Part shown: one piece after another, positions 18,838 through 37,096 of the stretch | Layout of the letters: every line of letters begins with the position of its first letter | How positions within the stretch are numbered: the stretch's first letter is position 1 | Source: a bacterium BMS3Bbin09 | GTDB taxonomy: Bacteria; Nitrospirota; Thermodesulfovibrionia; UBA6902 | DNA length: 41,488 nt | NCBI GenBank assembly: GCA_002897915.1 | Contig: BDTS01000087.1 | Coordinates: forward strand, 1-41,488 | Direction of reading: 5' to 3' | Program-made: the position numbers and the translations under genes | The notes under the pieces: model-generated | The model's database searches: none | Seen by the model: the letters and a program-made list of their open reading frames with translations, nothing else | Told to the model about the DNA's origin: nothing

Positions 18838-19488
18838 ATGAAAAATCAAGATCGATACAAAACATCCCACTTAAGCGAGGCACAATATGAACCCGGCTCC
18901 GGAAACAGGGTACTCAAGAATCTTCTCGGCATTAAACGCAAAAGAGAAATGGATCAGGCGGAAAGTGAGGCTTTAGAGCGAATAACTGATCTGCTGTTTA
19001 AAACTTATGCGAAAAATCAACGTTTCAAAGAAGCTGCTATTAAAAATATGCACAAAACCTGGTTGAAGGATATCTATGCCTGGGCTGGCGAATATCGAAA
19101 TGTAAATATCAGCAAGGATGATTTTCCGTTCGCTGCTTCTAAACAGGTACCGCAGTTGATGAATAAGTTTGATAAAGAGATCCTGGTTAAACATACTCCT
19201 TGCAACTTTAAAACTTTGAAGAGAGTTATTCAGGCACTGGCAATAGTTCATACAGAATTAGTGCTGATCCATCCATTTCGTGAAGGGAATGGAAGAATAA
19301 CCAGAGTGCTGGCAACACTTATGGCGACTCAGGCCGGATTACCGTTGCTGGACTTTAGTGCAATTCGAGGCAAAAAGAAAGAAGAATATTTCAGAGCTGT
19401 ACAGGCAGGAATGGACAAAGATTATAAGCCTATGGAAGCAGTATTTGACTTGATAATCAGTAAGACATTAAAAGATCAGGACCGCTGA
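18838..19488 (+). CDS. Fic-domain AMP transferase
   Basis: 216 aa with the intact Fic catalytic loop HPFREGNGRITR (His145) and the flap WAGEYRNVNISKDDFPFAA, so it should transfer AMP to a target protein. No inhibitory (S/T)xxxE(G/N) helix is seen within the protein; SEALER near residue 43 lacks the final Gly/Asn. This points to a class I enzyme needing a separate antitoxin. That partner appears to be the convergent small gene whose 3' end overlaps by 13 bp. The ribosome binding site is poor. Confidence 0.9.
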   Translation: MKNQDRYKTSHLSEAQYEPGSGNRVLKNLLGIKRKREMDQAESEALERITDLLFKTYAKNQRFKEAAIKNMHKTWLKDIYAWAGEYRNVNISKDDFPFAASKQVPQLMNKFDKEILVKHTPCNFKTLKRVIQALAIVHTELVLIHPFREGNGRITRVLATLMATQAGLPLLDFSAIRGKKKEEYFRAVQAGMDKDYKPMEAVFDLIISKTLKDQDR

Positions 19489-19679
19489 GATTTTTTAGAA
19501 GTCTTTTTTGACTTCTTGGTGAACAAGCAGTTAATCCCTTCGATCGCGCTGGAGGTTGATACATTAGTAATGAGCGCAGACTTATATTTCTTGCGGTCCT
19601 TCAAGTAAGGATTTGTTTCTATTAAAGGCTTCTTGGACATACTATATTTTACCATATTGAGTAATACCTTGTTTGCCAT
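19476..19679 (-). CDS. Small protein with Fic-inhibitory motif (putative Fic antitoxin)
   Basis: The 67-aa product contains MSKKPLIETNPYLKDRKKY followed by TNVSTSSAIEGI. SSAIEG fits the (S/T)xxxE(G/N) motif by which Fic antitoxins block ATP binding. The C-terminus is Lys/Ser-rich. ATG 19679 (MANKVLL) follows GGGGGA and is preferred over the track start four codons upstream. It runs opposite to fic, overlapping tail to tail, whereas known Fic antitoxins usually precede the toxin on the same strand. Confidence 0.7.
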   Translation of the reverse strand: MANKVLLNMVKYSMSKKPLIETNPYLKDRKKYKSALITNVSTSSAIEGINCLFTKKSKKTSKKSQRS

Positions 19680-19740
19680 ATTTTCCCCCATCGCCTATCG
19701 CCTTGTATCTTTAATCCGTTGGCTCTTTTGCTCTTATAAA

Positions 19741-19770
19741 CAATTTTATTGCCCGGCAGGGCTAAAATTG
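19741..19770. promoter_or_regulatory. Inverted repeat between the divergent antitoxin and OLD genes
   Basis: CAATTTTA...GCCC-GGCA-GGGC-TAAAATTG: 8 bp plus 4 bp of pairing with a two-base bulge. It lies between divergent genes and could be an operator; terminator use is less likely. Confidence 0.45.
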
Positions 19771-19891
19771 TTTACACTCTTTTCAAGGGACATGGTTGAA
19801 TAATCAAAACAACTCCACCTTTCATGCTATCTCCTGATTTTGACAAAAAAGCCGGGGAATATAGCATTTATAAAATCAAGGAAAACATCTT

Positions 19892-21712
19892 ATGAAATAC
19901 ACGTATTTTGAAATCAATAACTTCAAGGGTATTGAGAAGGTTAGAATTGATATAGATTCATCACCAAAAGGAGATGTGTATACTCTCGTTGGGCTAAATG
20001 AGAGTGGTAAGACTACAGTGCTTGAAGGTATCAATCTACTTACCTACCGTGAGGATCTTGACCCCCTCGATCTACCAGGATATGGAGAGCACGATATCCA
20101 TGACCTTATTCCAATCGCTAAGCGAGCAAATTTCAATGATAGCATAATGATTGAAGCTGGTTTCATGCCTACTGAAAGTGATGAGAAAATACTTGCACGC
20201 TTATTTAAAAAGAATGTCGGGGCCACACTAACTGAGCCGATTGGTGAATTCCATATAACTCAAGCATACAAATTTGAAAATTCAACGATGGTTGCGGGGC
20301 AGCCTAGCATCAAATGGAATATCAATCTTGTCGGAAAGCTAAAGAGACAAAGAATTCCAAAGAAAATCTCTAGTCCAAATTGGGCAGAGTGTATCCGGAT
20401 AATTAAAACTTTTTTGCCTTCGGTCGTTTACTTCCCTAATTTTTTATTTGAATTTCCTGACAAAATTTATCTTGAGAATCCACCAGATAACCCAGATAAG
20501 CACAATTTCTATTGTACAGTCTTACAAGATGTTTTAGATGCGATAGGAGATAACACAAATTTGCAGGATCATGTACTTTCAAGGGCAAAGAGCTCAAAGA
20601 CTTATGATAAACGAAGTTTAGAAAGCGGCCTTTTAAAGGTTGGTGCACACATAACCAAGACGGTATTTGAAAACTGGGATCGTATATTTAAAAGGCCTGC
20701 TGGAAAAAAAGAAATAATAGTAGATATAGAGCAAGATGCTCGAGGAGTTTACTACCTCCAGCTTCGTTTAAAAGATGGGAGCGACCTTTTTGCTATTAGT
20801 GAGAGGTCATTAGGATTCCGATGGTTTTTTACGTTCCTCTTGTTAACTCACTACAGAGGGTTTCGTAGTCTTGAACCAAGGAATGTCTTGTTTCTGATAG
20901 ATGAGCCTGCGTCAAACTTGCATCCCTCAGCTCAGACGCAGCTAATAGATAGCTTCACTAGACTACCTACCGGTTGTGGAATAATTTACACAACCCATAG
21001 CCATCATATGATCAAACCAGAATGGCTTGAGAATGCGTTTGTAGTCAAAAATGAGGGGCTTGACTATACGGATGCTGAGGATAACTATTCCGCAAAGGAA
21101 ACAAAAATAATACTGAGTAGATATAGGGAGTTTGCATCTAGACATCCAGAGCAATATACGTATTTTCAACCGATTCTAGATGTTTTAAATTACTGCCCAG
21201 GGCAATTAGAGAATGTTCCGGACGTTGTTATGCTCGAGGGTAAGAATGATTTTTATATCTTGAAATATATGTGTCAACAACAGAGAAGGGAGGAAGAGAT
21301 CAACCTAATGCCAGGTGGAGGGGCTGGCAGTCTTGATCAACCAATTCAACTCTATTTCGGGTGGGGGCGAAATTTTATTATACTACTCGATTCAGACGGT
21401 GAAGGTAAGACACAAAAAAATCGATATTTGGATAAATTTGGACTCGGCGCTCGTATATTCACTCTTGCAGATGCAGATGAGTCTTGGGGGAACAATGGTA
21501 TGGAGAGCCTATTTACAAAAGATGAGCAAATTAATATGCAAACTACGATTTATCCCGATTCTAGTAATTTCAACAAAACCCATTTTAACCGTGCTATACA
21601 AGAACTGTATCTTACAGATCGCGAAGTGGCGTTGTCAGAACAGACAAAGACTAAATTTGGCAACTTAATTGATAAATGTATTTCATGGTTAGATTTATCC
21701 ATAGATTACTAA
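19892..21712 (+). CDS. OLD-family ATPase with C-terminal TOPRIM nuclease domain
   Basis: 606 aa. The N-terminal ABC-type ATPase has Walker A GLNESGKT (residues 34-41), a degenerate signature ISERSLGFRWFF, Walker B VLFLIDEPASNLHP and H-loop TTHSHH. The C-terminal TOPRIM domain has the Glu in VVMLEGKND, the glycine turn PGGGAGS and the DxD pair in ILLDSDGEGK. This is the architecture of OLD/GajA-like anti-phage nucleases. No GajB-like UvrD helicase follows, so it resembles stand-alone class 1 OLD. Its DNA is visibly more AT-rich than the flanking genes, supporting recent transfer alongside the toxin genes. Confidence 0.88.
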   Translation: MKYTYFEINNFKGIEKVRIDIDSSPKGDVYTLVGLNESGKTTVLEGINLLTYREDLDPLDLPGYGEHDIHDLIPIAKRANFNDSIMIEAGFMPTESDEKILARLFKKNVGATLTEPIGEFHITQAYKFENSTMVAGQPSIKWNINLVGKLKRQRIPKKISSPNWAECIRIIKTFLPSVVYFPNFLFEFPDKIYLENPPDNPDKHNFYCTVLQDVLDAIGDNTNLQDHVLSRAKSSKTYDKRSLESGLLKVGAHITKTVFENWDRIFKRPAGKKEIIVDIEQDARGVYYLQLRLKDGSDLFAISERSLGFRWFFTFLLLTHYRGFRSLEPRNVLFLIDEPASNLHPSAQTQLIDSFTRLPTGCGIIYTTHSHHMIKPEWLENAFVVKNEGLDYTDAEDNYSAKETKIILSRYREFASRHPEQYTYFQPILDVLNYCPGQLENVPDVVMLEGKNDFYILKYMCQQQRREEEINLMPGGGAGSLDQPIQLYFGWGRNFIILLDSDGEGKTQKNRYLDKFGLGARIFTLADADESWGNNGMESLFTKDEQINMQTTIYPDSSNFNKTHFNRAIQELYLTDREVALSEQTKTKFGNLIDKCISWLDLSIDY

Positions 21713-23462: not shown

Positions 23463-23476
23463 GGTTATCTCCTTCC

Positions 23477-23504
23477 GTAGGGGCACGGCATGCCGTGCCC
23501 TTAC
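23477..23504. repeat. GTAGGGGC palindrome, core CACGGCATGCCGTG
   Basis: It lies between the two methyltransferase genes, just upstream of a ribosome binding site, and is identical in core to 4253. Confidence 0.9.
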
Positions 23505-23506
23505 AA

Positions 23507-24369: not shown

Positions 24370-24399
24370 ATACTAATTTAATTTAATTCCCATTGTCAA
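24370..24399 (-). promoter_or_regulatory. Candidate promoter inside the HD gene 3' end
   Basis: On the minus strand TTGACA and TAGTAT are 18 nt apart, spanning the HD-gene stop. The predicted start is at about the ATG of the 29-codon frame. Confidence 0.5.
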
Positions 24400-25180
24400 G
24401 ATTAAGCCTTTCTTTTATATATTCTCTCAACACATCCATTGCCGCCCTGATCTCATCCGTCTGCGGCAGCTTCTCGATCAATCGCTCGATATACCCTCTC
24501 TCCTGCAACAGCCTGATGGACTCATCAAAGTAAAGGTCGTAGATCCATGAGAGCTTCATCAGCTTGAAGTCATTCTCTGTCCTTATGTTCGAATAAGAGG
24601 CAACCTCTCTGTTGTAGAGGTTCTCGATCATGATCTTTGAGTATTCGGGAGTGTCCGGCATCCCGAAGGCGGTTGCGGACGCGCTCTCTTCAGGATGGCT
24701 TTCGTAATATTCGATGAAAACCCGGAAGATATCGACCTTGTCCGCGTCACGCACCATTTTAAGAAAAAAAATCGTGTCTTCGTCGAATATTGTCGGTATG
24801 GAGAATGCGCCGTGAAAATTCACGACCTTAAGTACAAGCTCCCTTTCACTTTCGGACAGGCGCTCAAGGACACCTTCTTTAATCAATGTCTTCTTGCCCA
24901 GAAGCCCGTGGCTGAGCGAGATAGCATCCCTGAAGGTCCTGTATTTGGCATACTGAGGGAACCTCCCGATATCATGGAAAAGCGCGACTGTCTCGGCAAG
25001 CCTCATTTGATCATCACTAAGTGACAATCCCTTTGCGATCAACAGGATGTTCTCTCTGACATTGCGCGTATGCTCTACCTTAAGCATTATATTTCTCTGG
25101 TCCTCTTCATTGGACGAATAAAAAAACTTCGTAAAATCGGAAAACCAGTTCCTGAAATATTTAAGGTCGTCTTCGGTCAT
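24383..25180 (-). CDS. HD-domain metal-dependent phosphohydrolase
   Basis: 265 aa with the HD set His37 (VEHTRNV), His69-Asp70 (LFHDIGRF), a further His in NFHG, and Asp in RDADKVDIFRV. It is expected to be a nucleotide or phosphate-ester hydrolase; substrate unknown. The TTG at 25198 used by the track and the ATG at 25180 both lack a ribosome binding site. The ATG is chosen. It follows the radical SAM gene on the same strand, separated by three palindromic repeats. Confidence 0.82.
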   Translation of the reverse strand: MTEDDLKYFRNWFSDFTKFFYSSNEEDQRNIMLKVEHTRNVRENILLIAKGLSLSDDQMRLAETVALFHDIGRFPQYAKYRTFRDAISLSHGLLGKKTLIKEGVLERLSESERELVLKVVNFHGAFSIPTIFDEDTIFFLKMVRDADKVDIFRVFIEYYESHPEESASATAFGMPDTPEYSKIMIENLYNREVASYSNIRTENDFKLMKLSWIYDLYFDESIRLLQERGYIERLIEKLPQTDEIRAAMDVLREYIKERLNLDNGN

Positions 25181-25202
25181 CTTATTAAAACGTTTCAAAC
25201 GT

Positions 25203-25279: not shown

Positions 25280-25291
25280 GTTATGTCTTTT

Positions 25292-25319
25292 GTAAGGGCA
25301 CGGCATGCCGTGCCCCTAC
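25292..25319. repeat. GTAGGGGC palindrome, core CACGGCATGCCGTG
   Basis: Third palindrome of the gap, with the commonest core in the window. Confidence 0.9.
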
Positions 25320-25339
25320 ATTTTATTTGTCACCTGTCT

Positions 25340-26701
25340 TTAATATTTATACTCCATGACCATCTGATCGAGCGAATCATCGCGGAGGAGGTACTGAACA
25401 TTGTCCTCTGCTATCATTTTGAACGCATACTTGATCACTTCCTTGTACAAGTCACAGAATACGGCCTTTTTGTACATGTTACCGCGAGCATACATCTCTG
25501 CCGGGCAGGGCGATCCGCAGATGTGCCTGAAGTCACAGACATCGCACTCATCTATCTTCTCAACCATCCTCGACCTGATTTCCTTAAACGGCTTTGAGTT
25601 CATCGCCTTTTCAATAGAGGTCTTGAAGATGTTCCCCCCTGAGAATTCCTTGAAACCTATAAATTCACCGCAAGGCACCATTGCACCGTCCGCGGTAACT
25701 GTGAGGAATGTCCTTCCGCCTCCGCAAGGTGAGATGTCACACATCATACGGCGCGCGGTAGGCGATATGATCGCGAGCAGGACATTAGCGAAGTTGCCGA
25801 TCACGATCTGCTGTTTTGTCTTTTTTGTAAGCTCCATCGCCGTGTTAACTGCCTTGATAAGGTTCTCCGCGTACTCGGCGTCATCCGCCTTTATCTTGTC
25901 AGCGCGTTTCTGTGTAAGGCGCACCGGGTTCAGTAGCACCATCGGCACCTTCTTCTTATGAAGGAACCGAACGAGCTGCGAGAGCTTTGTCACGTTGAGC
26001 TTTGTGACCGTGCAGATCACGTTCAGGCCTTCATAACCCTCAAACCACTTCAGTGCCTGGATCGCCTTTTTGTAGTTGCCGCCGCCGGCCCTTGATACAC
26101 GTGAAAGATTGTTATCAGCCTCCGTCGCGGCATCAAGGGAGATGCCGATACCCACGCGGTATTTCTTGATGAACTCCACGTCCTCTTTTTCGAGGAGGAG
26201 TGAATTTGTCTGGATACCGAAACGCATCTTCTTGTGATACTTCTTTATCGACTTGAAGAGGAGATCCTTGACCATGAGCGGCTCCGCAGCGTGATAAACG
26301 ATAACAGGTTGCTTCTTCTTGTCCTTGAAATAGTCCTCGATCCTGCTAAGCGTCAGGTCGAGCTGTTCCCATGTCATCTGGGTGCCGTGTGTCCTGATCT
26401 TCGAGGGAATATAGCAGTACGGGCAGTTCGCGTTGCATCTGTCTGTGGGGTCAATATAAACACAGTTAAGCGGCTCGTTGAACCTGAAGTCATGCATCTC
26501 CTTGTCAAGATGCTTCAGCTCTTTTTTATAGAGATCGATCAGGTTCTGGGGGAGGCTAAAGTCTCCGTTGTTCCTCGGCAGCGCGCTCCAGAAAATATTT
26601 TCCGGATCAAGCGCCAGCTTCCAGTTCTCATCTATATCCGAAAACGAGAGGCCCCTCTCAACATTGGTCTCTGAACATCCGCATTTACTCTTCTTACTCA
26701 T
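25340..26701 (-). CDS. SPASM-domain radical SAM peptide-modifying enzyme (CbpB-like)
   Basis: 453 aa. The radical SAM cluster motif CNANCPYC (Cys89, 93, 96) follows DPTDR. The C-terminal SPASM domain carries several cysteines (CDISPCGGG, VPCGEF, CDVCDFRHICGSPCP, FCDLY). The N-terminus has a further CGC. SPASM enzymes install thioether, C-C or other links in ribosomal peptides. AAGGAGA precedes the ATG. A 46-codon peptide gene lies upstream on the same strand, after a strong hairpin, and the B12 genes precede that. I recall NCBI models called CbpA/CbpB for such a pair near cobalamin genes, but cannot check this. PqqE- or anSME-like roles fit less well. Confidence 0.85.
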   Translation of the reverse strand: MSKKSKCGCSETNVERGLSFSDIDENWKLALDPENIFWSALPRNNGDFSLPQNLIDLYKKELKHLDKEMHDFRFNEPLNCVYIDPTDRCNANCPYCYIPSKIRTHGTQMTWEQLDLTLSRIEDYFKDKKKQPVIVYHAAEPLMVKDLLFKSIKKYHKKMRFGIQTNSLLLEKEDVEFIKKYRVGIGISLDAATEADNNLSRVSRAGGGNYKKAIQALKWFEGYEGLNVICTVTKLNVTKLSQLVRFLHKKKVPMVLLNPVRLTQKRADKIKADDAEYAENLIKAVNTAMELTKKTKQQIVIGNFANVLLAIISPTARRMMCDISPCGGGRTFLTVTADGAMVPCGEFIGFKEFSGGNIFKTSIEKAMNSKPFKEIRSRMVEKIDECDVCDFRHICGSPCPAEMYARGNMYKKAVFCDLYKEVIKYAFKMIAEDNVQYLLRDDSLDQMVMEYKY

Positions 26702-26738
26702 TTAATGAATCTCCTTTTATATTGATTTTATATTTGTA

Positions 26739-26813
26739 GTCATTCCTGTGAAAACAGGAATCCATAATACTGCACATCAACAACTACTGGATTCCCGCTT
26801 TCGCGGGAATGAC
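26739..26813. repeat. Inverted pair of GTCATTCC...GGAATCCA hairpin repeats
   Basis: Unit 1 is at 26739-26764 and unit 2 (inverted, TGGATTCCCGC...GCGGGAATGAC) at 26788-26813. Each folds on itself and they pair with each other, like a small MITE. Confidence 0.8.
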
Positions 26814-26831
26814 ACATCGCAGCATGTTTAT

Positions 26832-26859
26832 GTAAGGGCACGGCATGCCGTGCCCCTAC
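26832..26859. repeat. GTAGGGGC palindrome, core CACGGCATGCCGTG
   Basis: It lies in the gap between the peptide gene and the radical SAM gene. Confidence 0.9.
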
Positions 26860-26895
26860 AAGTGAACATTACACATTGACACAATGTATGCTTAT

Positions 26896-26924
26896 GTAGA
26901 GGCGGGTTTGAAACCCGCCCCTGC
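26896..26924. repeat. GTAGGGGC palindrome, core GGGTTTGAAACCC
   Basis: GTAGAGGCGGGTTTGAAACC followed by CGCCCCTGC. It lies in the gap between the peptide gene and the radical SAM gene. Confidence 0.85.
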
Positions 26925-26940
26925 AATTTCTTTTAAAAGA

Positions 26941-26974
26941 GTGGGCAGACGGTTTCAAAAAACCGCCTGCCCAC
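26941..26974 (-). terminator. Strong hairpin after the peptide gene, probable attenuator
   Basis: On the minus strand GTGGGCAGGCGGTTT-TTTG-AAACCGTCTGCCCAC (15 bp with one G-U pair) is followed by TCTTTT. It starts 12 bp after the stop of the peptide gene. It would lower expression of the enzyme relative to the peptide, a usual RiPP operon layout. It resembles the palindrome family. Confidence 0.65.
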
Positions 26975-26985
26975 CGCTTCATTGA

Positions 26986-27126
26986 TTAAAGAGGCATTTT
27001 CTTTTTTGGCACATCACCGTACATTACAAAATGTGTCAAACCGTTCGCGGTCTTCGCACATTTCATGTGGTAGGAAATGGCTGTCTTTGTCTCTGCCTTC
27101 TTCTGGGTCTTCTTGGATTTTTTCAA
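26986..27126 (-). CDS. Putative RiPP precursor peptide (CbpA-like), 46 aa
   Basis: This frame is not in the ORF track because it starts with TTG. A strong AGGAGGG lies 7 nt upstream of that TTG. The product has a Lys-rich leader (KKSKKTQKKAETKT) and a compact tail AISYHMKCAKTANGLTHFVM followed by YGDVPKKKMPL. One Cys, two Tyr, two His and a Phe are possible modification sites. It lies directly upstream of the SPASM radical SAM gene, separated by a hairpin, and downstream of cobD. The peptide role is inferred from size, context and ribosome binding site. Confidence 0.72.
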   Translation of the reverse strand: MKKSKKTQKKAETKTAISYHMKCAKTANGLTHFVMYGDVPKKKMPL

Positions 27127-27153
27127 GAAATTACCCTCCTTTCAATGAAGTTT

Positions 27154-27187: not shown

Positions 27188-28261
27188 TTATGCTCCAACT
27201 GCCGACAAAGCTCCAAGCAGAATTTCATTATCCTTACGGGATTTGACGGCCACCCGTATATAAGAATCGTCAAGGCCCCTGAAGTTTGAACAGTCCCTGA
27301 GGATAATTCCCTTCTCCTTCATACCCTCGCATATTTTCACGCTATTACCTGTCTTGATCAGATAAAAATTGATTGCGGAAGGGAAAAACTCTATTCCAAT
27401 ATCCCTCAGTCCGTTCTCGATAAACTCTTTTTCATTTTTGATGAGATCCATGGTCCTGGCCGCGTAATCAATGTCATCTATCGCAGCGATCGCCGCCTTC
27501 TGTGCCAGTGTGTTCATTGTCCAGGGCTCCTTGAATTCCTTGATCCTCTCGATGATATCCGGATGGAACACCCCGTATCCGGCCCTCAGCCCTGTTATCG
27601 CGTAGAACTTTGTCATGGACCTCAGGACAATAAGGTACGGATTGCCCTGAACATGCCCGATCACTGAATCAGCTGGGCAGAAATCGATAAATGCCTCGTC
27701 CAGAACAAGAAGACATTTCATTTCCCGCGCGGCTTCAGCTATCCTGAGCACTTCTTCTTTGGTTAAAAGATCACCGGTCGGATTATTCGGGTTGCAGAGA
27801 AACGCCATATCGCACCCCTGCATTACTTCAATAAATTCCCTCGCAATTATTTTGTAACTATCTTCTTTCTTGAGGGTCAATTCTTTTATCTCTCCGCTTT
27901 TTATCGCGTTTCCATACTCTGAGAACGCCGGAGCCGTTATGAGCACCTTGCCCGGCTTCAACGCAGCAGGAAGAAGATATATAAGTTCGGTACTCCCGTT
28001 CCCGCAGATTATCGAGTTGGGGTCGATATTGTGGTATTGCGCTATCACTTGCCTCAATTCAGACGCGTCCGGATCCGGATAATGGACGAGGTTGTCCAGT
28101 TCAGCCCTGATCGCCTCTTTTACCCTGTCCGAGATACCAAGCGGATTGATCGACGCGCTGAAATCAATAAGTTCAGATGCGGGTATCCCTGTCTCTTCCG
28201 AGATCCTGTATATGTTCCCACCATGTTCCGGTCTGTTTATTTCCATAGTCTCTACACTCAT
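27188..28261 (-). CDS. cobD: Threonine-phosphate decarboxylase CobD (PLP)
   Basis: It makes aminopropanol phosphate for the nucleotide loop of B12. 357 aa with fold-type I PLP features: HGGNIY near the N-terminus, CNPNNPTGDLLT, the Asp in LVLDEAFIDF and the Schiff-base lysine in RSMTKFYAITGLRAGY. The HisC-like fold alone would be ambiguous, but HGGN and the cbiB neighbour favour CobD. The ATG overlaps the cbiB stop by 4 bp. It is the last conventional B12 gene before the peptide gene. Confidence 0.93.
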   Translation of the reverse strand: MSVETMEINRPEHGGNIYRISEETGIPASELIDFSASINPLGISDRVKEAIRAELDNLVHYPDPDASELRQVIAQYHNIDPNSIICGNGSTELIYLLPAALKPGKVLITAPAFSEYGNAIKSGEIKELTLKKEDSYKIIAREFIEVMQGCDMAFLCNPNNPTGDLLTKEEVLRIAEAAREMKCLLVLDEAFIDFCPADSVIGHVQGNPYLIVLRSMTKFYAITGLRAGYGVFHPDIIERIKEFKEPWTMNTLAQKAAIAAIDDIDYAARTMDLIKNEKEFIENGLRDIGIEFFPSAINFYLIKTGNSVKICEGMKEKGIILRDCSNFRGLDDSYIRVAVKSRKDNEILLGALSAVGA

Positions 28262-29466
28262 ACCAATAAAATTGCCGCAAGAAGCCCGAGGAAAGAGGTC
28301 AGTTTAATGATGCCTACGGCTATGAGTGCCGCCTCCATATACGCCTCGGCACTCCCTGGCTTGAGACCCTCTTTCAGGATATTGTCTCCTATGTAAGGCT
28401 TTACACCCTCGACTCCTTCGTAAGTCGATGGCCCCCCGAGCCTTACCCCGAGGGCGCCCGCCATTGCTGCCTCGGGCACACCGGCATTCGGACTCGAGTG
28501 ATTCTTTCCATCTCTTATCATTATCGAATAAGCCCTCTTGGCACTTTCAAAGTCAGGGCCCTTTATCTTCCCTTCGATCCAGTTCAGAAAGCTTCCTACA
28601 TAGCGGCCCATCCTGTTGCGCATGCCTTCAAGCCATTCTGCGCCCCAGCTTACAGCGAACCTGCAGGAGTTAATACAATATACTGCCGCCACTATCAACG
28701 CGCCGGTGATCCTTGCCGGAATATAGTTGGCAATATCATCCAGCCTGGCTGCTGCCCAGCCAAAACTCCGATATTTATCATTCTTATATCCAATCATAGA
28801 ATCGAGAGTGTTAATTGCCTTGTATGTCATTGCGAGCGGCAGCCCCCCCAGAACAAAATAGAATAAGGGGGCGGTTATCCCGTCCGATGCGTTTTCCGAA
28901 AGTGTCTCTATAACAGCCTTCAGTATCCCGGCCTCCTGCAGGTTCTGCGTGTCCCTGCCAACGATCATAGAAAGCTTGTCCCTCGAGATATTGAGTTCGC
29001 CTCTTCCAAGTTCCCGTATCACGCCAAGCGCCGAACCAATGAGCCCGCGGGTCGCGAGTGTTGTCGAGACCAGGAAGACATAAATGCCGAACGAGATAAA
29101 TTCGGCTATCGGAGAAAAATCCAGGCTATCTAAGATCCTGTCCAGAATAAAAAATGAAATAAACGTGCCCGCAACCATAATAGCAACAAGCGCGGCCCCC
29201 GCGATCTTCTCCTGCACCCCTGTCGAAAGATCTTTCCCCTTGCGAAGGAAAGGCGGTACAATATCATTCAAGTTGACCCGGGGACGCGGCTTATCATCGC
29301 CTTTACTCTCTTCTTCTGCGCCTTCCCAATTGATCAGATTCCTGAGCCAGGTCTCAAGCTTCTCTATAAGCAGTCCCATTGCCTGGACCGGATGGGGCAT
29401 CCATCTCGGGTCGCCTGTGATCAGGTCAACTAAATATGCCAATGTAAGTGCCATGGTCTCTGTCAT
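28258..29466 (-). CDS. cbiB: Adenosylcobinamide-phosphate synthase CbiB, with insertions
   Basis: A membrane enzyme joining the aminopropanol (phosphate) arm to adenosylcobyric acid. Family marks are DLITGDPRWMPHPVQAMG, IVGRDTQNL, ETLSENASDGITAPLFY and HSSPNAGVPEAAMAGALGVRLGG. At 402 aa it is longer than the usual 300-325. One insert of about 45 residues near residue 45-90 includes IVPPFLRKGK, which looks like a translated hairpin repeat (29232-29252). A second, near residues 280-315, precedes SAKRAYSIM. GGAG precedes the ATG, which overlaps the cobQ stop. Confidence 0.92.
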   Translation of the reverse strand: MTETMALTLAYLVDLITGDPRWMPHPVQAMGLLIEKLETWLRNLINWEGAEEESKGDDKPRPRVNLNDIVPPFLRKGKDLSTGVQEKIAGAALVAIMVAGTFISFFILDRILDSLDFSPIAEFISFGIYVFLVSTTLATRGLIGSALGVIRELGRGELNISRDKLSMIVGRDTQNLQEAGILKAVIETLSENASDGITAPLFYFVLGGLPLAMTYKAINTLDSMIGYKNDKYRSFGWAAARLDDIANYIPARITGALIVAAVYCINSCRFAVSWGAEWLEGMRNRMGRYVGSFLNWIEGKIKGPDFESAKRAYSIMIRDGKNHSSPNAGVPEAAMAGALGVRLGGPSTYEGVEGVKPYIGDNILKEGLKPGSAEAYMEAALIAVGIIKLTSFLGLLAAILLV

Positions 29467-31043
29467 TTCATCTCCTCCGTCTTATTCATGCAGTACTCCA
29501 TTCCGACTTCTCTCAATATGAAACAGATGTCCAAACTCTTGCCAAGGATATCCGCCCACCGCTCTATCGCCTCCTCTTTCTTTGAGTGATAGTTGGTCGT
29601 CTCTTCCCTCGGGGGAAGGCCTTTTTTCATCCTCAGGGAATTTATAACAGCGGTCCTAAGGCCGTCATTATCGAATATACCATGGATATACGTCCCCCAG
29701 ACATTCTCTTTGACGGAACCGTCAGGGACAGGATCGTTCGAGCCGTTCAAACGTTTTATATTGAACAGCCCCACATCCCCGGTCGTATGCCCCATATGGA
29801 TCTCATATCCCTTGAGCTGGTTCCATTTACATGTTGATGTGCTTTGCACCGCCCCGAACCATTTCTGGCTGACAAGGTTGGCTGATAGCTGACAAGTGGT
29901 CTTTGTCCTGTCCATTGTTGTTACTGTATCGAGCAAATCCATTCCATCTATTTCCGCGTGTGAACTTTCAACATTATCAGGATCAACGATCTTTTGGCCG
30001 AGCATCTGATAGCCCCCGCATATGCCTGCTACCGATGTCCCGTTCTCAGCCGCTCTCCTTACAAGCTTATCGATCCCGTTCTCCCTCAAAAATAGAAGAT
30101 CGGTCACGGTATTCTTTGAACCCGGAACAATAATAAGATCCGCGCTCTTTATGTCCATCTCATCGAGGGAATATTTCAGTTCAACGTCCGGCTCATACAT
30201 GAACGAGTCAAAGTCCGTAAAGTTGGATATGTACCTCAGGCCGAGCACCACGATCTTCACCGGCTTGTGATACTCACCCTTGTGAGATTGCTTCCATCTC
30301 TCGGCAGGGATCGCGTCCTCTTCATCCAGTCCAAGATCCCCATGATAATAAAGCGTGCCTATCACGGGCTTGTCCGTCTTCTCCTCTATCATCCGGAGCC
30401 CGGGCCGGAGGATATTCATATCGCCCCTGAACTTGTTCACAATGAATGCCTTAATATAATCTGCGTCGGTCCTTCCGTCTTCGCGTACGCGGTCCCCCAG
30501 CAGGCCGACCGTCCCGTAAAAAGCGGCGAAGACGCCGCCCTTATCTATGTCGCCTACCAGTATCACAGGTGCGTCCGTATAACGGGCAACGCGCATGTTC
30601 ACAACTTCTTCATCCTGAAGATTGATCTCCGCGGGACTGCCCGCGCCTTCGATCACGATCAGGTCATAATCCTTTGCAAGCCTGTCGTACGCGGCCGTGA
30701 TCTCTTTCCAGACCCGGTCCTTGATCTCATAATATTCATGCGCCTTTAGAGTCGCATAGACGCTGCCGTTGAGTATCACCTGACAGCCTGCCTCGCCGGT
30801 TGCCTTCAACAGTACGGGATTCATATCGTTTACCGGCTCTATACCCGCGGCCTCTGCCTGGAAGGCCGTTGCCCTGCCGATCTCACCGCCCTCCTTTGTG
30901 ATAAAGGAATTGAGCGCCATGTTCTGGGACTTGAAGGGCGCGACCTTTATGCCCATGTTCCTGAATATCCTGCAGAGCCCGGCAACGATAACGCTTTTGC
31001 CCGCGCCTGATCCTGTTCCCTGTATCATGATTGCTTTAGCCAT
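29463..31043 (-). CDS. cobQ: Cobyric acid synthase (amidotransferase)
   Basis: Also called cbiP. It amidates four carboxylates of adenosylcobyrinate diamide using glutamine. The N-terminal dethiobiotin-synthase-like ATPase domain has P-loop GTGSGAGKS at residues 9-17. The C-terminal class I GATase domain has nucleophile Cys in VAGICGGYQMLG and His in TYIHGIFD. GYEIHMG is also diagnostic. The track start adds a repeat-derived MCCCTVALFLT; the ATG at 31043 (MAKAIMIQGTG) is right, giving 526 aa. Ribosome binding site weak. The segment CQLSANLVSQKWFGAVQSTS before GYEIHMG is longer than I expect and may be repeat-derived. Confidence 0.95.
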   Translation of the reverse strand: MAKAIMIQGTGSGAGKSVIVAGLCRIFRNMGIKVAPFKSQNMALNSFITKEGGEIGRATAFQAEAAGIEPVNDMNPVLLKATGEAGCQVILNGSVYATLKAHEYYEIKDRVWKEITAAYDRLAKDYDLIVIEGAGSPAEINLQDEEVVNMRVARYTDAPVILVGDIDKGGVFAAFYGTVGLLGDRVREDGRTDADYIKAFIVNKFRGDMNILRPGLRMIEEKTDKPVIGTLYYHGDLGLDEEDAIPAERWKQSHKGEYHKPVKIVVLGLRYISNFTDFDSFMYEPDVELKYSLDEMDIKSADLIIVPGSKNTVTDLLFLRENGIDKLVRRAAENGTSVAGICGGYQMLGQKIVDPDNVESSHAEIDGMDLLDTVTTMDRTKTTCQLSANLVSQKWFGAVQSTSTCKWNQLKGYEIHMGHTTGDVGLFNIKRLNGSNDPVPDGSVKENVWGTYIHGIFDNDGLRTAVINSLRMKKGLPPREETTNYHSKKEEAIERWADILGKSLDICFILREVGMEYCMNKTEEMK

Positions 31044-31054
31044 TGTTAAAAAAA

Positions 31055-31085
31055 GTGCAACAGTGCAACAGCACAATAGTGCAAA
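31055..31085. repeat. GTGCAACAG/GTGCAATAG short repeat tract
   Basis: AGTGCAACAGTGCAACAGCA and CAATAGTGCAA lie between cobC and cobQ. A related tract is inside cobC at 31545-31580. Confidence 0.6.
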
Positions 31086-31096
31086 AGTTAAAAGAC

Positions 31097-31711
31097 TTAA
31101 ACGACAAAATTAATTTGTTTAACTACAGGATAGTCCCACATCTCGATCACATTCAATGCGCCAAAGTCCTGTTCTATCCTGAAAATATTCTCAAGAGGTA
31201 TCCCGAGCATCTCACACAGGATGACCCTGGTCACCCCGCCGTGCGACACGACAGCGATATCCTCTCCCTCATGGTCCTCCATGATCTTATTGAATGCGGG
31301 CATCACTCTCTCCCGCAGATCAAGCGTGCTCTCGCCCTCCATGGGACTGAACCTAAGCGGATCACGCGCCCATGCACTAAAGGCATCGGGCCACTTATCG
31401 CTTATCTCATCAAAGGACATGCCCTCCCACTCCCCAAAGTTGCGTTCCTTCAGTTCATCGATAACAATCGGTTTGAGCCCGAAGGGCTCCGCGATAATCT
31501 CCGCGCTCTTGCTCGCCCTGCTGAGACCGGAACAGTACACAGCGCCTATTGCACTATTGCGCTTCTGCACTATTGCACTAAGAAAACTCGAGAGTTTTCT
31601 TATCTGTTCCACCCCGTTCGCGGATAGAGAAACATCAATGTGCCCGTTATAGCGGCGAGGGTCCGAGTCCTCGACCTCTCCATGTCTTATTAGATAAATT
31701 TTTGTGCCCAT
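31097..31711 (-). CDS. cobC: Alpha-ribazole phosphatase (histidine phosphatase family)
   Basis: It removes the phosphate from alpha-ribazole phosphate or adenosylcobalamin phosphate. LIRHGE at the N-terminus carries the catalytic His, ERNFGEWEG is the family middle motif and VVSHGGVTR holds the second His. 204 aa. Residues near 45-57 (SAIVQKRNSAIG) coincide with a GTGCAATAG repeat in the DNA and look like an in-frame expansion before the conserved GLSRASKSAEII. The start overlaps the cobS end by 22 bp. Confidence 0.9.
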   Translation of the reverse strand: MGTKIYLIRHGEVEDSDPRRYNGHIDVSLSANGVEQIRKLSSFLSAIVQKRNSAIGAVYCSGLSRASKSAEIIAEPFGLKPIVIDELKERNFGEWEGMSFDEISDKWPDAFSAWARDPLRFSPMEGESTLDLRERVMPAFNKIMEDHEGEDIAVVSHGGVTRVILCEMLGIPLENIFRIEQDFGALNVIEMWDYPVVKQINFVV

Positions 31712-32487
31712 ATTATTGTCACTATCAAAAATATTAAGACCGCGATCTCATTCATGGCCCCGAACGAATCACCTGTCATACCCCCGAAGAGCTTGTTGAA
31801 GAAGAGTACTGACAGGAAGCTGAACCCGTAAAGAACCGGCATCGCGAACATCAGATAAAAGATATAAAGCGGGAACTGCATAACGATCGTACAGACCAGC
31901 CCCGTAAGAATGACCGCTATTGCTGAAGCTATTAAAAGCTGCTTGCCTTCCGTATGCTCGATAAAGAGATTCCCGAGCCCGTCTTTCCGCGCGGACCTGC
32001 CGTGAAAGGCCGCTATCACCATTGCCCAGCGCGACAGTATCGGCATTGAGACAACGGTCGCATAATAGGCTGGAGCAGGCGCATGAAAGAACAGCGCGCT
32101 CAACATGGTAAACTTCAGCAAAAGCACCATTACTATGGATATCACACCCATCGGACCGACAGTGCTGTCCTTCATGATCAAGAGCTTTTTTTCGTAGTCA
32201 CCCCGTGATGCAACAGCGTCAAAGGTGTCTGAAAGTCCGTCAAGATGAAGACCGCCGTTCATTATCACCATGATGAGAACGAGCAGCGCACTCGTCAGCT
32301 CTGCTGGAAAATACTCCATAAAGACCGATGCAAAAAAGGCGAGCAGAACCCCCTCGCCTAATCCGACAAGGGGAAAGAAGGACGTTGTTCTCCCCATCTC
32401 TTCAGGAGAGACCTCGCCCGTGTCCTTAACAGGAACTATCGTCAGGAACTGGGATGCAAGTATCACCTTTTTCATTGTCTTTACCAT
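31690..32487 (-). CDS. cobS: Adenosylcobinamide-GDP ribazoletransferase (cobalamin synthase)
   Basis: A membrane enzyme that joins AdoCbi-GDP and alpha-ribazole (phosphate). It has multiple hydrophobic segments. Conserved motifs are NGGLHLDGLSDTFDA (metal-binding acidic residues), KDSTVGPMGV and GGMTGDSFGA. 265 aa, normal length. AAAGGA precedes the ATG, 5 bp after the cobT stop. Confidence 0.95.
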   Translation of the reverse strand: MVKTMKKVILASQFLTIVPVKDTGEVSPEEMGRTTSFFPLVGLGEGVLLAFFASVFMEYFPAELTSALLVLIMVIMNGGLHLDGLSDTFDAVASRGDYEKKLLIMKDSTVGPMGVISIVMVLLLKFTMLSALFFHAPAPAYYATVVSMPILSRWAMVIAAFHGRSARKDGLGNLFIEHTEGKQLLIASAIAVILTGLVCTIVMQFPLYIFYLMFAMPVLYGFSFLSVLFFNKLFGGMTGDSFGAMNEIAVLIFLIVTIIWAQKFI

Positions 32488-32492
32488 GACAA

Positions 32493-33554
32493 TTATCCTT
32501 TCTTACCGGCTACCTCGGCTTCCGCAAAGGTCGCCATCTCCTTGTAAATCTTGAGTCCTCCTTCAATGACGAGCATCGCAAGTGCGACCCCCGTGCCTTC
32601 ACCAAGTCTCATGTCGAGATCAAGTATCGGTCTCAGGCCAATCTTTTCGAGCAGTGCCTTATGTCCTATCTCCTGGGACCTGTGGGCCGCAAACATATAG
32701 TCCTTTGTCTTCGGTTCTATCATGTACGCTATCAATGCACCGGCAGTTGATATGAACCCGTCAATTACAACGGGGACCTTGTTCGCCGCCGCGCCGATGA
32801 TCAATCCGGCGATGGCCGCGATCTCCGCGCCTCCGATCTTTGAAAGCACATCAATCGGATCGGAAGCATCAGGAGTGTTGATCGATATAGAATCCTTGAT
32901 GACCTGGACCTTATTCTTCAACACATCGTCATTTATGCCGGTGCCCCTGCCAGTGATATCTTCGACTGATACACCTGTGAGCACGGCTGTTATTGCGCTT
33001 GATGGGGTTGTGTTCGCAATGCCCATCTCACCGGTGCCGAACATTTTATAACCTTTCCCGGCGTATTCATTCGCAAGCTCTATCCCGACATTAATGCACT
33101 TTTCGGCCTCTTCCCTTGTCATGGCAGGACCCTTACGCATGTTCTTTGTGCCGGATACAACCTTGCGGGAGACAAAGCCCTCTTTATCTAAACCGCCGAA
33201 GTCATAGTCCACCCCAATATCAACAGCAACGACCTCCGCGCCCGCGTGACGGGCGAGAACATTTATGCCCGCGCCTCCGTTAACAAAGTTCATGACCATC
33301 TGCGGGGTCACCTCTTTCGGGAACGCTGATACCCCTTCTTCAGCAACGCCATGGTCGCCCGCGAAAGTGAAAACAACTTTTTTATCGAGAGAGGGCATGT
33401 TCTCCTCTGTTATCGCGACAAGCTGTTTCGCGAACTCCTCGAGCCTGCCGAGGCTGCCCTGCGGCTTGGTAAGGCTGTCCAGCCTGTTCTGCGCCTCTTC
33501 AGCGAATTTACCGTTACTGTTTGTGATGCTGCTTGATGTTTTCTTATAATCCAT
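32493..33554 (-). CDS. cobT: Nicotinate-nucleotide:dimethylbenzimidazole phosphoribosyltransferase
   Basis: It activates the lower-ligand base as alpha-ribazole phosphate. [12 protein letters not shown] at the N-terminus, [30 protein letters not shown] and the catalytic Glu in [11 protein letters not shown] are all present. ATG 33554 (MDYKKTSS) is preceded by GGAGGATAGT. The track start 12 bp upstream would overlap that ribosome binding site. 353 aa is normal. Confidence 0.96.
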
Positions 33555-33575
33555 ACTATCCTCCATTTTAAAAAA

Positions 33576-33611
33576 CTGTTCAAACAGTTCGAACGTTCGA
33601 ACAGTTCAAAC
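33576..33611. repeat. GTTCRAACAGTTCRAAC self-complementary repeat
   Basis: CTGTTCAAACAGTTCGAACG and TTCGAACAGTTCAAAC form a palindromic tract filling the gap between cobT and cobU, directly upstream of the cobT leader. Confidence 0.7.
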
Positions 33612-33614
33612 GAT

Positions 33615-34133
33615 TTATTTGATTTTTAAAGGTATCCCGGCAACCACCAGATATACCTCCTCCGATATTCCCGCTATCCTCTGATTTAAATTGCCCGCAA
33701 GGTCCCTGAACTTTCTTGCCAGGTCGTTCTCGGGTACAATGCCCGTCCCGACCTCGTTCGAGACCATATAAACCGTTGAGAGGTCCTTTGATCTATCTAA
33801 TTCATCAATAAATTTATTGATCGCCCCTTCGGTATCTTTCATATGATGCATAATATTCGAAAGCCATAACGTCAGACAGTCAATAAGGACAACGCTGTAT
33901 TTATCCCCGGTCTCTGACAGTACCTTTGAAACATTCAGCGGCTCTTCATAGGTATCCCATTCATCGCCTCTTTCGGCCTTGTGCCTACTGATGCGTTCTT
34001 TCATCTCCCCGTCAAGTGCTTCAGCGGTCGCAATAAAGGCCTTTTTGCCTTTTACCCCGGATGCCTGGGTCAATGCGAACGAGCTCTTTCCGCTCTTTGC
34101 GCCGCCCAGGACAAAAATTATCTTTAGTGCCAT
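33615..34133 (-). CDS. cobU: Adenosylcobinamide kinase / guanylyltransferase
   Basis: A bifunctional enzyme that phosphorylates adenosylcobinamide and adds GMP. It has P-loop LGGAKSGKSSFA, the guanylylation region with His in SRHKAERGDEWDTYEEP, DCLTLWLSN and SNEVGTGIVPENDLARKFRD. 172 aa, full length. 13 bp from tonB. Confidence 0.96.
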   Translation of the reverse strand: MALKIIFVLGGAKSGKSSFALTQASGVKGKKAFIATAEALDGEMKERISRHKAERGDEWDTYEEPLNVSKVLSETGDKYSVVLIDCLTLWLSNIMHHMKDTEGAINKFIDELDRSKDLSTVYMVSNEVGTGIVPENDLARKFRDLAGNLNQRIAGISEEVYLVVAGIPLKIK

Positions 34134-34146
34134 TTCCCTTTCTCCT

Positions 34147-34875
34147 TTAGTTCCTCAGCCTGTATGTGAGCGGAAGCTCGATCCTGCTGGCAATGAGCGG
34201 AAACGGAGCCGCTTTTTTGACCACCTGCACGGTCGCGTTGTCGAGGATGCCGGAGCCGGAGCTTTTCAGTATCTTGATCCCGTAGGGAGTTCCGTCCGCC
34301 ATAACATTAAAACTCACATGCACCGTGCCTTCGATGCCCCTCTTTCTGGCAATGATCGGATATGTCTTCACCCTTTCTATGGCCATATATATCAACTCGA
34401 TGGTCCCGGGGAGGATCCCAGCCCCCTGTCCGGGCGGAGCAAACGCATGGCTGCCAGATGCAGGTTGATCATAAACAGCCTGTGCAACTACTATCTCTCC
34501 ACCATGATCAACGGCCTCTCCCGGTAAAGGGGTAACCCCGGCAGCTAGTTCTTCCCTCACAGGCTCCTTTGCCACAGGCTCAACTTCTTCAGTAATTACA
34601 TCTTCACTTAACGCTTTAGCTTTCTCAACAACATCATCCGCCCTGGTCATCTCCGGCTCAACACTGGCGATAACAGGCAGCTTCGCTTTTTCAACAACCC
34701 GAACACCAGCTGCCTTAACTGCCTGCGGTTCATCTGCCGCAAGGCTGATAAAGACAACCTCCGTCTCAGGCAGTTTCCCGCTGCCCCCAAACAATCTTGC
34801 GGAAAGCAAGAGGGCAGCAGAGAAAAAGCAGATATGCAGTACTATTGATACTGTTATTGTCTTTTTAAGCGTCAT
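34147..34875 (-). CDS. tonB: TonB-family energy-transducing protein
   Basis: N-terminal membrane anchor (TITVSIVLHICFFSAALLL), an acidic/Pro-containing periplasmic linker with PVAKEPVREE, and a C-terminal TonB domain (YPIIARKRGIEGTVHVSFNV ending LPLTYRLRN). It passes proton-motive energy to outer-membrane receptors. Its place directly after btuB suggests a receptor-dedicated TonB. No exbBD are in the window. GGAG precedes the ATG. Confidence 0.9.
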   Translation of the reverse strand: MTLKKTITVSIVLHICFFSAALLLSARLFGGSGKLPETEVVFISLAADEPQAVKAAGVRVVEKAKLPVIASVEPEMTRADDVVEKAKALSEDVITEEVEPVAKEPVREELAAGVTPLPGEAVDHGGEIVVAQAVYDQPASGSHAFAPPGQGAGILPGTIELIYMAIERVKTYPIIARKRGIEGTVHVSFNVMADGTPYGIKILKSSGSGILDNATVQVVKKAAPFPLIASRIELPLTYRLRN

Positions 34876-34899
34876 ACTTATAGCTTCTCCTGCTTACAG

Positions 34900-36735
34900 C
34901 TATATCGACAATTTAACTCCGGTAAATACCGAAGCTCCCGGGGTACCGTAACCACCCGCAACCTCATAGTGTTGGTTGAACAGGTTGTCCACACGTCCGA
35001 AAATCTTAAGGTTATTATTTAGTTTATAACTGCCGCTCAAGTCCACGAGTATGTATGAAGGCAGATTTCCAACGCTCACGGACTCATATACCTTGCTGAC
35101 ATATGTATAGCTTGCCATTACAGAGGCCGGGCCGTCGGAATAATCCAGTGTAACGTTCAGCTTGTCGAGCGGCCTCCTCTGGAGCCGGTGCCCGGTGGCC
35201 TTATCCTCGGAATCAGTATACGAATAAAACGAACTCGCGGTCAGGCTTTCGCTTATCTTAACAACAGCCCCTGCCTCGATCCCCCTGACGGTCGATTCCG
35301 CTATATTCTGCGGTACATACTGCCACGAGCCGGGCGGGGTCTCTATCCATTCTATCAGGTCTTTATAATCCTGATTAAAATAAGTAAGGGAGACCGTGGC
35401 CCTCTCCTTTACAATCTCCTTCTCAACCCCAACCTCCCAGGCATTGCTCTTCTCGGGCTTCAGGTCCGGATTGCCGCTGCTCCATGCGTCCTGGTAATAG
35501 AGCTCATTCAATGTCGGTGTCCTGAAGCCGGTACCGTAGCTGCCTTTAAGTTTAAGCCCGACGGTTTTGATGTTATAAACTCCACCGACCCTGTAAGTTG
35601 TCTTATGTCCGGATGCCTCATGGTCATCATATCTGAGGCCCGCGTTCAATACAAGATCATCATTCAAAAGCTTCAGTTTATTATTAATATAGAACGCATT
35701 GTTGTTTACCGTCCTCTCAAATACCCCGATGTTCTCGCCTTCCTCTTCTTCGTATTCAGCTCCAAGTGTAAGAGTATAACTCTCTGTCAGATATAGGTTA
35801 TGCTGCCAGTCAACCGTATCCAGGGCCGTGATTATGTCCGCATTATTCCAAAGGGTGTCAGGGTCGGTGTATTTCAGATAATCCTTGACCCTCGATATAG
35901 TGAGCACCTGCTCCCACTCATCGATAAGGTAAAGCTTTGCCTTTCCGGACATAACATAATGCCTCCCAGTCTGGACATAGTTCAGGTCGTCAGCGCCGAA
36001 TGCATCAAGCTCCGAGCGGTCACCTGAATACCTGCCCGAGAGTTCCAGCTCAAACTTCTCCGTCGGCCTGATCCCGATCCTAGCTGACACGAAATCGTTC
36101 TTATATCCGTCGGCCTCGGTGCCGGTCTTTGCGGCTGATATGCCGTCGGTCTCATAGTGACTGACTGTCACCCTGAAGTCCGCCTTGTCCGTACCGCCGG
36201 AAAAACTCACGGACGGGCTGAATGTTTTATTCGCCCCTTCTTCATAGTAGCCCTCTATCTTCAGAGGGCCTTTCCCTTTTTTGGTAATGATGTTAATGAC
36301 CCCAGCCATGGCATCTGATCCATAGATCGTGCTCTGCGCTCCCTTTACGATCTCGATCCTCTCAATATTGTCGGACATAATATTGGCAAAGTCGAAATCG
36401 CCGGTGGTCGTGCTCTTTACCTTTACCCCATCTATCATCACCAGTGTCTGTGCTGCGCTTCCACCCCTTAAAATAACGGTTGAGAGCTTGCCCGAACCAC
36501 CGTTCTGCACAACATTGATCTCGGGAACGTCCTTCAATACATCAATTATAAACTCTTTCCCCTCTGCCTCGATCTTTTCCTGCGGGATCACGAGCACACT
36601 GCTGGTCGTCTCCTCAACCGCTTCTTCAATCTTTGTTGCACTTACGATAACTTCTTTTACCTTAATGGGCTCATCTCCGGCAAATACCGTCGATGCACCG
36701 AAAACCAGAATTAATAATATCCATAATCTATACAT
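34900..36735 (-). CDS. btuB: TonB-dependent outer-membrane receptor, BtuB-like
   Basis: A signal peptide (residues 1-19, cut near FAGDEP), TonB box EVIVSATK, plug domain (about 40-150, VPEINVVQNGGSGKLSTVIL and GVINIITKKG), then a beta barrel to the aromatic-poor C-terminus SVFTGVKLSI. 611 aa matches BtuB. The riboswitch upstream and neighbours btuCDF and cobU make cobalamin/cobinamide the likely substrate. AAAGGAAA precedes the ATG. Confidence 0.92.
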   Translation of the reverse strand: MYRLWILLILVFGASTVFAGDEPIKVKEVIVSATKIEEAVEETTSSVLVIPQEKIEAEGKEFIIDVLKDVPEINVVQNGGSGKLSTVILRGGSAAQTLVMIDGVKVKSTTTGDFDFANIMSDNIERIEIVKGAQSTIYGSDAMAGVINIITKKGKGPLKIEGYYEEGANKTFSPSVSFSGGTDKADFRVTVSHYETDGISAAKTGTEADGYKNDFVSARIGIRPTEKFELELSGRYSGDRSELDAFGADDLNYVQTGRHYVMSGKAKLYLIDEWEQVLTISRVKDYLKYTDPDTLWNNADIITALDTVDWQHNLYLTESYTLTLGAEYEEEEGENIGVFERTVNNNAFYINNKLKLLNDDLVLNAGLRYDDHEASGHKTTYRVGGVYNIKTVGLKLKGSYGTGFRTPTLNELYYQDAWSSGNPDLKPEKSNAWEVGVEKEIVKERATVSLTYFNQDYKDLIEWIETPPGSWQYVPQNIAESTVRGIEAGAVVKISESLTASSFYSYTDSEDKATGHRLQRRPLDKLNVTLDYSDGPASVMASYTYVSKVYESVSVGNLPSYILVDLSGSYKLNNNLKIFGRVDNLFNQHYEVAGGYGTPGASVFTGVKLSI

Positions 36736-36867: not shown

Positions 36868-36902
36868 TAAAACCTCCTTCTCTCTCGAAAGGTTGCGATT
36901 TT

Positions 36903-37085: not shown

Positions 37086-37096
37086 ATATGTTCTTG

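Follow-up and report, generated by a model that had tools for sequence, protein, structure and literature searches.

We analysed a window of 41,488 nt (contig BDTS01000087.1 of the Nitrospirota bacterium BMS3Bbin09) in which a short peptide gene, cbpA, adjoins a radical SAM enzyme gene, cbpB. All features of the pair lie on the minus strand. By frame and translation, cbpA (26986–27126, type II) has a TTG start and encodes a putative precursor peptide of 46 aa, MKKSKKTQKKAETKTAISYHMKCAKTANGLTHFVMYGDVPKKKMPL*, with an AGGAGGG ribosome binding site (27134–27140) 7 nt 5′ of the TTG. Directly 3′ of its stop codon is a 16-bp hairpin (26940–26975), terminator- or stabiliser-like and followed by TCTTTT. 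The next gene, cbpB (25340–26701; 453 aa, ATG start), encodes a radical SAM/SPASM peptide maturase (TIGR04163) and has its own AAGGAG ribosome binding site at 26711–26716. The initial annotation, made from sequence alone, had described a TTG-started, Lys-rich frame of 46 codons with an AGGAGGG site, then a hairpin, then a SPASM radical SAM gene with a good ribosome binding site, and the frame, the enzyme gene and both sites held as described.

The pair belongs to a same-strand run headed by a cobalamin riboswitch (36899–37112, minus strand; RF00174, 80.4 bits). From the riboswitch the order is a btuB-like receptor gene, a tonB-like gene, cobU, cobT, cobS, cobC and cobQ (29463–36735), cbiB for adenosylcobinamide-phosphate synthase (28258–29466), cobD for threonine-phosphate decarboxylase (27188–28261; TIGR01140, 339 bits, over cut-off), cbpA, cbpB and a gene for an HD-domain protein (24383–25198). 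cobD is directly upstream of cbpA at a distance of 61 nt. cobS and cobT were named from reading of the sequence and recurring position, without a separate scan. The HD-domain protein, encoded directly 3′ of cbpB, has family members in 16 other loci, where they are mostly found among cbi (cobalt-precorrin) methyltransferase genes, and it looks like an uncharacterised B12-linked HD phosphohydrolase.

Conservation of cbpA and its relation to the CbpA family

Using the enzyme as query across 85,462 species genomes, we recovered 59 related loci. A short frame with the same tail lies 5′ of the enzyme gene in 52 of the 54 loci that have at least 700 nt of upstream sequence, and 57 of 59 homologous cbpA loci, with start codons chosen by a simple rule, have a Shine-Dalgarno match of 4 nt or longer. 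The 30-residue tail can be aligned gap-free across 48 loci of the window's type, with a pN of 0.076, a mean pS of 0.82 (saturated) and a pN/pS of 0.09; C23, T26, N28, G29, L30, H32, F33, Y36, G37, D38 and L46 never vary. A peptide profile search of 296 genomes of the phylum gave matches in 25. CbpB is present in 23 of the 296, and CbpA is close by in all 23 (Fisher p 3e-32); in the two genomes with CbpA alone, the locus stops at or near a contig edge. The gene pair, selection on the peptide and co-inheritance with the enzyme are shown by these data, and we regard it as very likely that cbpA and cbpB form a precursor-enzyme pair.

No CbpA-type frame was found 5′ of the enzyme gene in two of the 54 loci, L017 and L050. 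The genome of L017 carries cbpA beside btuF at a separate locus (L107), with cbpB on another contig. L050, from Omnitrophota, has CbpB and no detectable CbpA in its 1.5 Mb assembly.

According to the initial annotation, its reading of a RiPP cassette would be refuted if the 46-codon frame proved unconserved, or free of purifying selection, beside homologous enzymes. Aligning the short frames upstream of such enzymes, as it had suggested, gave a near-invariant tail under strong purifying selection, and the refutation was not met. The layout expected of a RiPP, a variable leader and a conserved core beside a peptide-modifying enzyme, is present and is upheld by conservation, purifying selection and genome-wide co-occurrence; the modification itself is inferred.

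The leader of CbpA, about residues 1–16, is Lys-rich (mean K+R content 34%), and the near-invariant core, ISYHMKCAKTANGLTHFVMYGDVPKKKMPL, spans about residues 17–46. The peptide has a single conserved Cys, no repeated Cys motif and no hydrophobic segment of the signal type (maximal 11-residue hydropathy 1.14). One Cys, two Tyr and two His had been noted in the tail, which is correct for the window peptide and can be refined, as Cys23 and the second His (H32) alone among them never vary. Many relatives have Arg in place of the first His, and Tyr36 is confined to type II. After Met1, the residues invariant in all 24 aligned peptides are C23, G29, L30 and H32, and position 33 is F or Y. These four residues are conserved without exception across Nitrospirota, Nitrospinota, Omnitrophota, Planctomycetota and Bathyarchaeota. 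The conserved unit is C23-x5-G29-L30-[T/S]31-H32-[F/Y]33-[V/I]34-[M/L]35.

The initial annotation had put forward the names CbpA and CbpB, those of a pair found near cobalamin genes, and proposed an NCBIfam HMM search of both proteins. The enzyme matches CbpB over its cut-off, and the peptide remained unmatched, by NCBIfam and Pfam models alike. Against TIGR04164, the 25-residue CbpA model of NCBIfam (cut-off 35 bits), it gives no match even at an E-value of 10, whereas a type I planctomycete relative scores 47 bits, archaeal relatives 30–32 and one Omnitrophota peptide 14.5. Assignment by TIGR04164 score therefore failed, and homology was shown instead by profile comparison between the types that TIGR04164 detects and the window's type (E 4.6e-10, probability 96.7). 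Because of this comparison, the shared C, G, L and H at equal spacing, and the congruence of enzyme clades, the window peptide is a divergent but true CbpA homologue of a sequence type that we call type II, and these names hold even though TIGR04164 misses the peptide. In the enzyme tree there are three supported groups, each of which pairs with one peptide type (I, II or archaeal) without exception.

The window shares with NCBIfam CbpA/CbpB (TIGR04164 cobo_pep, TIGR04163 rSAM_cobopep) the two-gene layout, an enzyme over the CbpB cut-off, the B12 gene context and the C-x5-G-L-x-H-[F/Y] spacing of the peptide. Type II differs in its longer tail, with MYGDVPKKKMPL in place of LMDKK and the additional invariant residues T26, N28, Y36, G37 and D38, and its enzymes score about 490–520 bits against TIGR04163, compared with 670–710 for type I. 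Founding of the family pair is reported to go back to Haft and Basu 2011 (PMC3133131). In the open-access literature searched, we found no paper on CbpA/CbpB as a radical SAM pair and no functional one. The names are not new; what is added here is the large type II clade with its B12 operon and riboswitch setting. TIGR04164 detects type I well and fails on type II, the companion of most sampled CbpB in the phylum (19 of 23 CbpB genomes), and the public CbpA model in this way misses most members of its own family there.

Architecture of the enzyme CbpB

Against TIGR04163, CbpB scores 490.9 bits as a whole protein (2.9e-147), passing the equivalog cut-off of 375, and its domains are PF04055 and PF13186 (SPASM). 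C89, C93 and C96 make up the radical SAM motif CxxxCxxC. These three, and eight C-terminal Cys (C321, C326, C344, C386, C389, C395, C399 and C416), do not vary among 49 sequences, which represent at least five phyla. The protein fits CX3CX2C plus the SPASM motif CX9-15GX4C-CX2CX5CX3C-C, which is defined by seven Cys (PMC6231123), with the spacing C326-x12-G339-x4-C344, C386-x2-C389-x5-C395-x3-C399 and C416; C321 is one extra Cys upstream of that motif. A comparison of solved structures found the auxiliary clusters of anSME and SuiB to be fully ligated and Aux I of CteB to be open (PMC6231123). By analogy, the eight C-terminal Cys of CbpB are sufficient in number for full ligation of both auxiliary clusters, the state seen in anSME and SuiB.

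In sequence and in fold, the best matches of CbpB are the SCIFF maturase CteB and the anaerobic sulfatase maturase anSME, with which it shares the radical SAM plus SPASM architecture. Its AlphaFold2 model (pLDDT 85.9, pTM 0.87) is closest to CteB. CteB has an open Aux I and a full RRE, a leader-binding domain of three strands and three helices, whereas CbpB has the eight invariant C-terminal Cys and an N-terminal module that is modelled as three strands (19–42) and one long helix (52–74). This N-terminal region has no Pfam match, and the model predicts that it is not a full RRE; leader binding has not been shown. anSME differs in that its substrate is a protein and not a dedicated small precursor. 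The PapB-type ranthipeptide, DynA and YhhB maturases are among the next-best NCBIfam models, at 129, 128 and 111 bits, far under their cut-offs of 340–450, and CbpA differs in having a single conserved Cys and no repeated Cys motif.

Gene context across relatives and the hairpin after cbpA

Counting only B12 and cobalt gene families, we found such genes within reach in 52 of 60 cbpAB loci. The commonest order is cbiA-cbiXC-cbiM-cbiN-cbiQ-cbiO-cbpA-cbpB-cbiD-corrin methyltransferases, and most Nitrospirota relatives have cbpAB between the cobalt ECF transporter genes cbiM-cbiN-cbiQ-cbiO and cbiD. In L012 and L037 a cobalamin riboswitch heads the run, before the transporter. In Omnitrophota, cbpAB lies between cbiB and cbiA with a riboswitch upstream, and the type I loci L087, L089 and L092, from a planctomycete and other lineages, are near cob or btu genes. 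The archaeal loci and the type I loci L057, L058, L059, L061, L088 and L090 have no B12 gene nearby.

At the level of genomes, cbiC or cbiD is present in 20 of 25 that bear CbpA versus 112 of 271 others (p 2e-4). The remaining 5 of the 25 are without both, and CbiM was not found in 3 of the 20 CbpA genomes tested. Two of the genomes without cbiC and cbiD look like salvage genomes, L089 with CbiZ, BtuFCD, CobO and CobU, and L105 with BtuFCD, CobU, CobT, CobS and CobQ. Since these five genomes lack both genes, the role of CbpA is not tied to de novo ring making, and what unites the CbpA-bearing genomes is therefore the handling of corrinoids and cobalt, not merely synthesis of the ring. The same genomes, and L089 with its CbiZ, weaken the case for a role confined to cobalt insertion. 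The B12 and cobalt gene context and the riboswitches are shown, and a role for CbpA/CbpB in B12 or cobalt metabolism is likely. The initial annotation had suggested a link to corrinoid or metal handling, which gene context and riboswitches strongly support, with the refinement that the role is not bound to de novo ring synthesis. It had also noted that no protease or exporter is adjacent. This held in the window and across relatives, as no protease/peptidase or exporter family recurs beside cbpAB in 60 loci.

Some relatives carry further genes at these sites. At L101, which comes from a relative of the window's family, a CbiX-like gene encoding 128 aa (2862–3248) lies directly between cobD and cbpA, in a genome where cbiC, cbiD and cbiM went undetected. 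A PF13557 outer-membrane-type protein is encoded 5′ of cbiM in about 12 loci (e.g. L012 6155–6949). Its gene directly follows the cobalamin riboswitch in L012 and L037, raising the possibility of an outer-membrane cobalt route.

The hairpin between the peptide and enzyme genes, which the initial annotation had noted, is real by folding against shuffles (-31.1 kcal/mol, z -6.6, no shuffle equally stable). In 46 of 59 loci the 65 nt 3′ of the cbpA stop have z < -2, with a mean z of -4.6, compared with 22 of 67 control intergenes from the same loci (p 4e-7). This p-value is indicative, because both sets were scored against mononucleotide shuffles and the related loci lack independence. The position recurs after cbpA and the sequences are unrelated between loci, a pattern suggestive of selection for a hairpin by which the cbpA message is protected or terminated. 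A strict terminator model was rejected, and since only 10 of 59 loci show a stem plus T run, most of these hairpins are better termed stabilisers or attenuators. The hairpin would lead to more peptide than enzyme, although this expression ratio is inferred. A 33-nt interspersed palindromic repeat of the TGTAAGGGCACGGCATGCCGTGCCCCTACA type occurs in the window at 23473–23505, 25288–25320, 26828–26860 and 40101–40133, one copy being inside the cbpA-cbpB gap, and in relatives similar palindromes with other arms follow cbpA.

Proposed role of the peptide and alternatives

In our model, cbpA would encode the ribosomal precursor of a RiPP, and CbpB would recognise CbpA and oxidatively alter the C-terminal core of the peptide, probably by an intramolecular reaction. 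The reaction site, functional ligands or both would lie within the conserved unit C-x5-G-L-[T/S]-H-[F/Y]-[V/I]-[M/L]. No chemistry has been shown, and both the modification and its site are inferred. We slightly favour a carbon-carbon cross-link or an oxidation near H32-[F/Y]33 over a Cys thioether made by a sactisynthase reaction with Cys on an open cluster, because the eight Cys could fully ligate the auxiliary clusters. With such chemistry, C23 and H32 would remain available as ligands. The eight SPASM Cys argue only weakly against an open-cluster mechanism, and a thioether bond to Cys23 remains possible, given that CteB, the closest fold match, forms thioethers and that one invariant Cys allows one. 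It is also possible that the product is of the sactipeptide/ranthipeptide class, with a thioether linking Cys to a carbon of the backbone or of a side chain, which is compatible with one invariant Cys.

The pair would be expressed with B12 genes, often 3′ of cobalamin riboswitches, and modified CbpA would stay in the cytosol. An intracellular product is suggested because export and trimming genes and a signal segment are all absent, but its location is inferred. There the small peptide would act as carrier or chaperone, linking uptake (CbiMNQO, BtuFCD) to the late steps of corrinoid assembly, with Co2+ or a corrinoid as its cargo; this cargo is favoured because of the cobalt and corrinoid gene context, on which binding entirely rests. 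Taken as a whole chain, a RiPP that resides in the cytosol and carries cobalt or a corrinoid on its Cys/His tail is a reading that could as well prove wrong as right, with chemistry, binding and carrier role all inferred. Against it stand the absence of any demonstrated chemistry, expression or binding, the few ligands that one Cys and one His offer a monomer for tight metal binding, the salvage-looking L089 and L105, the CbiM-less genomes and the loci without nearby B12 genes. The bolder form, an intracellular RiPP acting as a cobalt/corrinoid chaperone of B12 metabolism and kept near letter-for-letter across several bacterial phyla, is one we would at present lean slightly against. Supply of cobalt to B12 is the task of the cobalt chaperone CobW, a GTPase serving CobNST (PMC7689651), and metal is handled by RiPP metallophores of the methanobactin type. 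Both are analogies only. Methanobactin is made by other enzymes and is exported.

Of the alternatives, the one that survives best is that the modified tail, in place or trimmed, serves a B12-pathway enzyme as a peptide-derived cofactor or redox group, like PQQ or mycofactocin. The near-invariant core, the lack of an export signal, the one dedicated SPASM enzyme and the widely separated hosts are in its favour, and it remains possible. However, no enzyme family accompanies cbpAB everywhere, neighbours vary by lineage, and no trimming enzyme is seen near cbpAB.

We find it unlikely that CbpA yields a secreted cobaltophore or corrinophore, a modified and trimmed peptide that is exported, captures cobalt or corrinoids outside and returns, as methanobactin does for copper, through the product of a neighbouring gene for a TonB-type receptor or outer-membrane protein. 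Several loci do have btuB-like receptors, a TonB protein or the riboswitch-linked PF13557 outer-membrane-type protein near cbpAB. However, no exporter or peptidase family recurs at the 60 cbpAB loci, CbpA has no hydrophobic signal segment, and its core is almost invariant between phyla. Secreted metallophores tend to diversify.

It is likewise improbable that CbpA regulates the B12 operon at the peptide or RNA level, with modification by CbpB sensing S-adenosylmethionine, cobalt or redox state. The Lys-rich leader, operon position and hairpin after the stop would suit a regulator, but the hairpins of different loci are unrelated in sequence, which leaves no conserved RNA switch, and several operons already have cobalamin riboswitches. 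That the 46-codon frame arose by chance, with the enzyme acting on some other substrate, is supported only by the lack of an NCBIfam or Pfam match to the window peptide and is all but excluded by purifying selection, recurrence in 52/54 loci, near-exact genome co-occurrence and clade congruence, and we rejected it on selection and co-occurrence.

Returning to the carrier model, in the anaerobic B12 pathway CbiK takes up cobalt unaided at its in vivo availability, whereas the late CobNST enzyme requires the chaperone CobW (reviewed in PMC7689651). Here a peptide that is near-invariant and probably modified is embedded among the cobalt uptake and corrinoid assembly genes of anaerobic-route lineages. 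Since the pair recurs in B12/cobalt clusters of numerous bacteria that have not been cultured, it points to a step in cobalt/B12 handling that relies on a peptide and has gone unrecognised. If CbpA does carry cobalt or corrinoids, this would be a peptide-based delivery of metal or cofactor and an intracellular job for a RiPP. The question is directly testable, because the system comprises only two small genes, the core is defined and null phenotypes would be clear.

Two other regions of the window deserve mention. Between btuF-like and cbiH genes, 39674–40969 (minus strand) encodes a protein of 431 aa that has a weak BPL_N (biotin-protein-ligase N-terminal) domain and no NCBIfam match. At 18838–21712 (plus strand), a Fic/DOC-domain gene precedes a large gene for an AAA ATPase (AAA_15); the two may represent a mobile or defence insertion.
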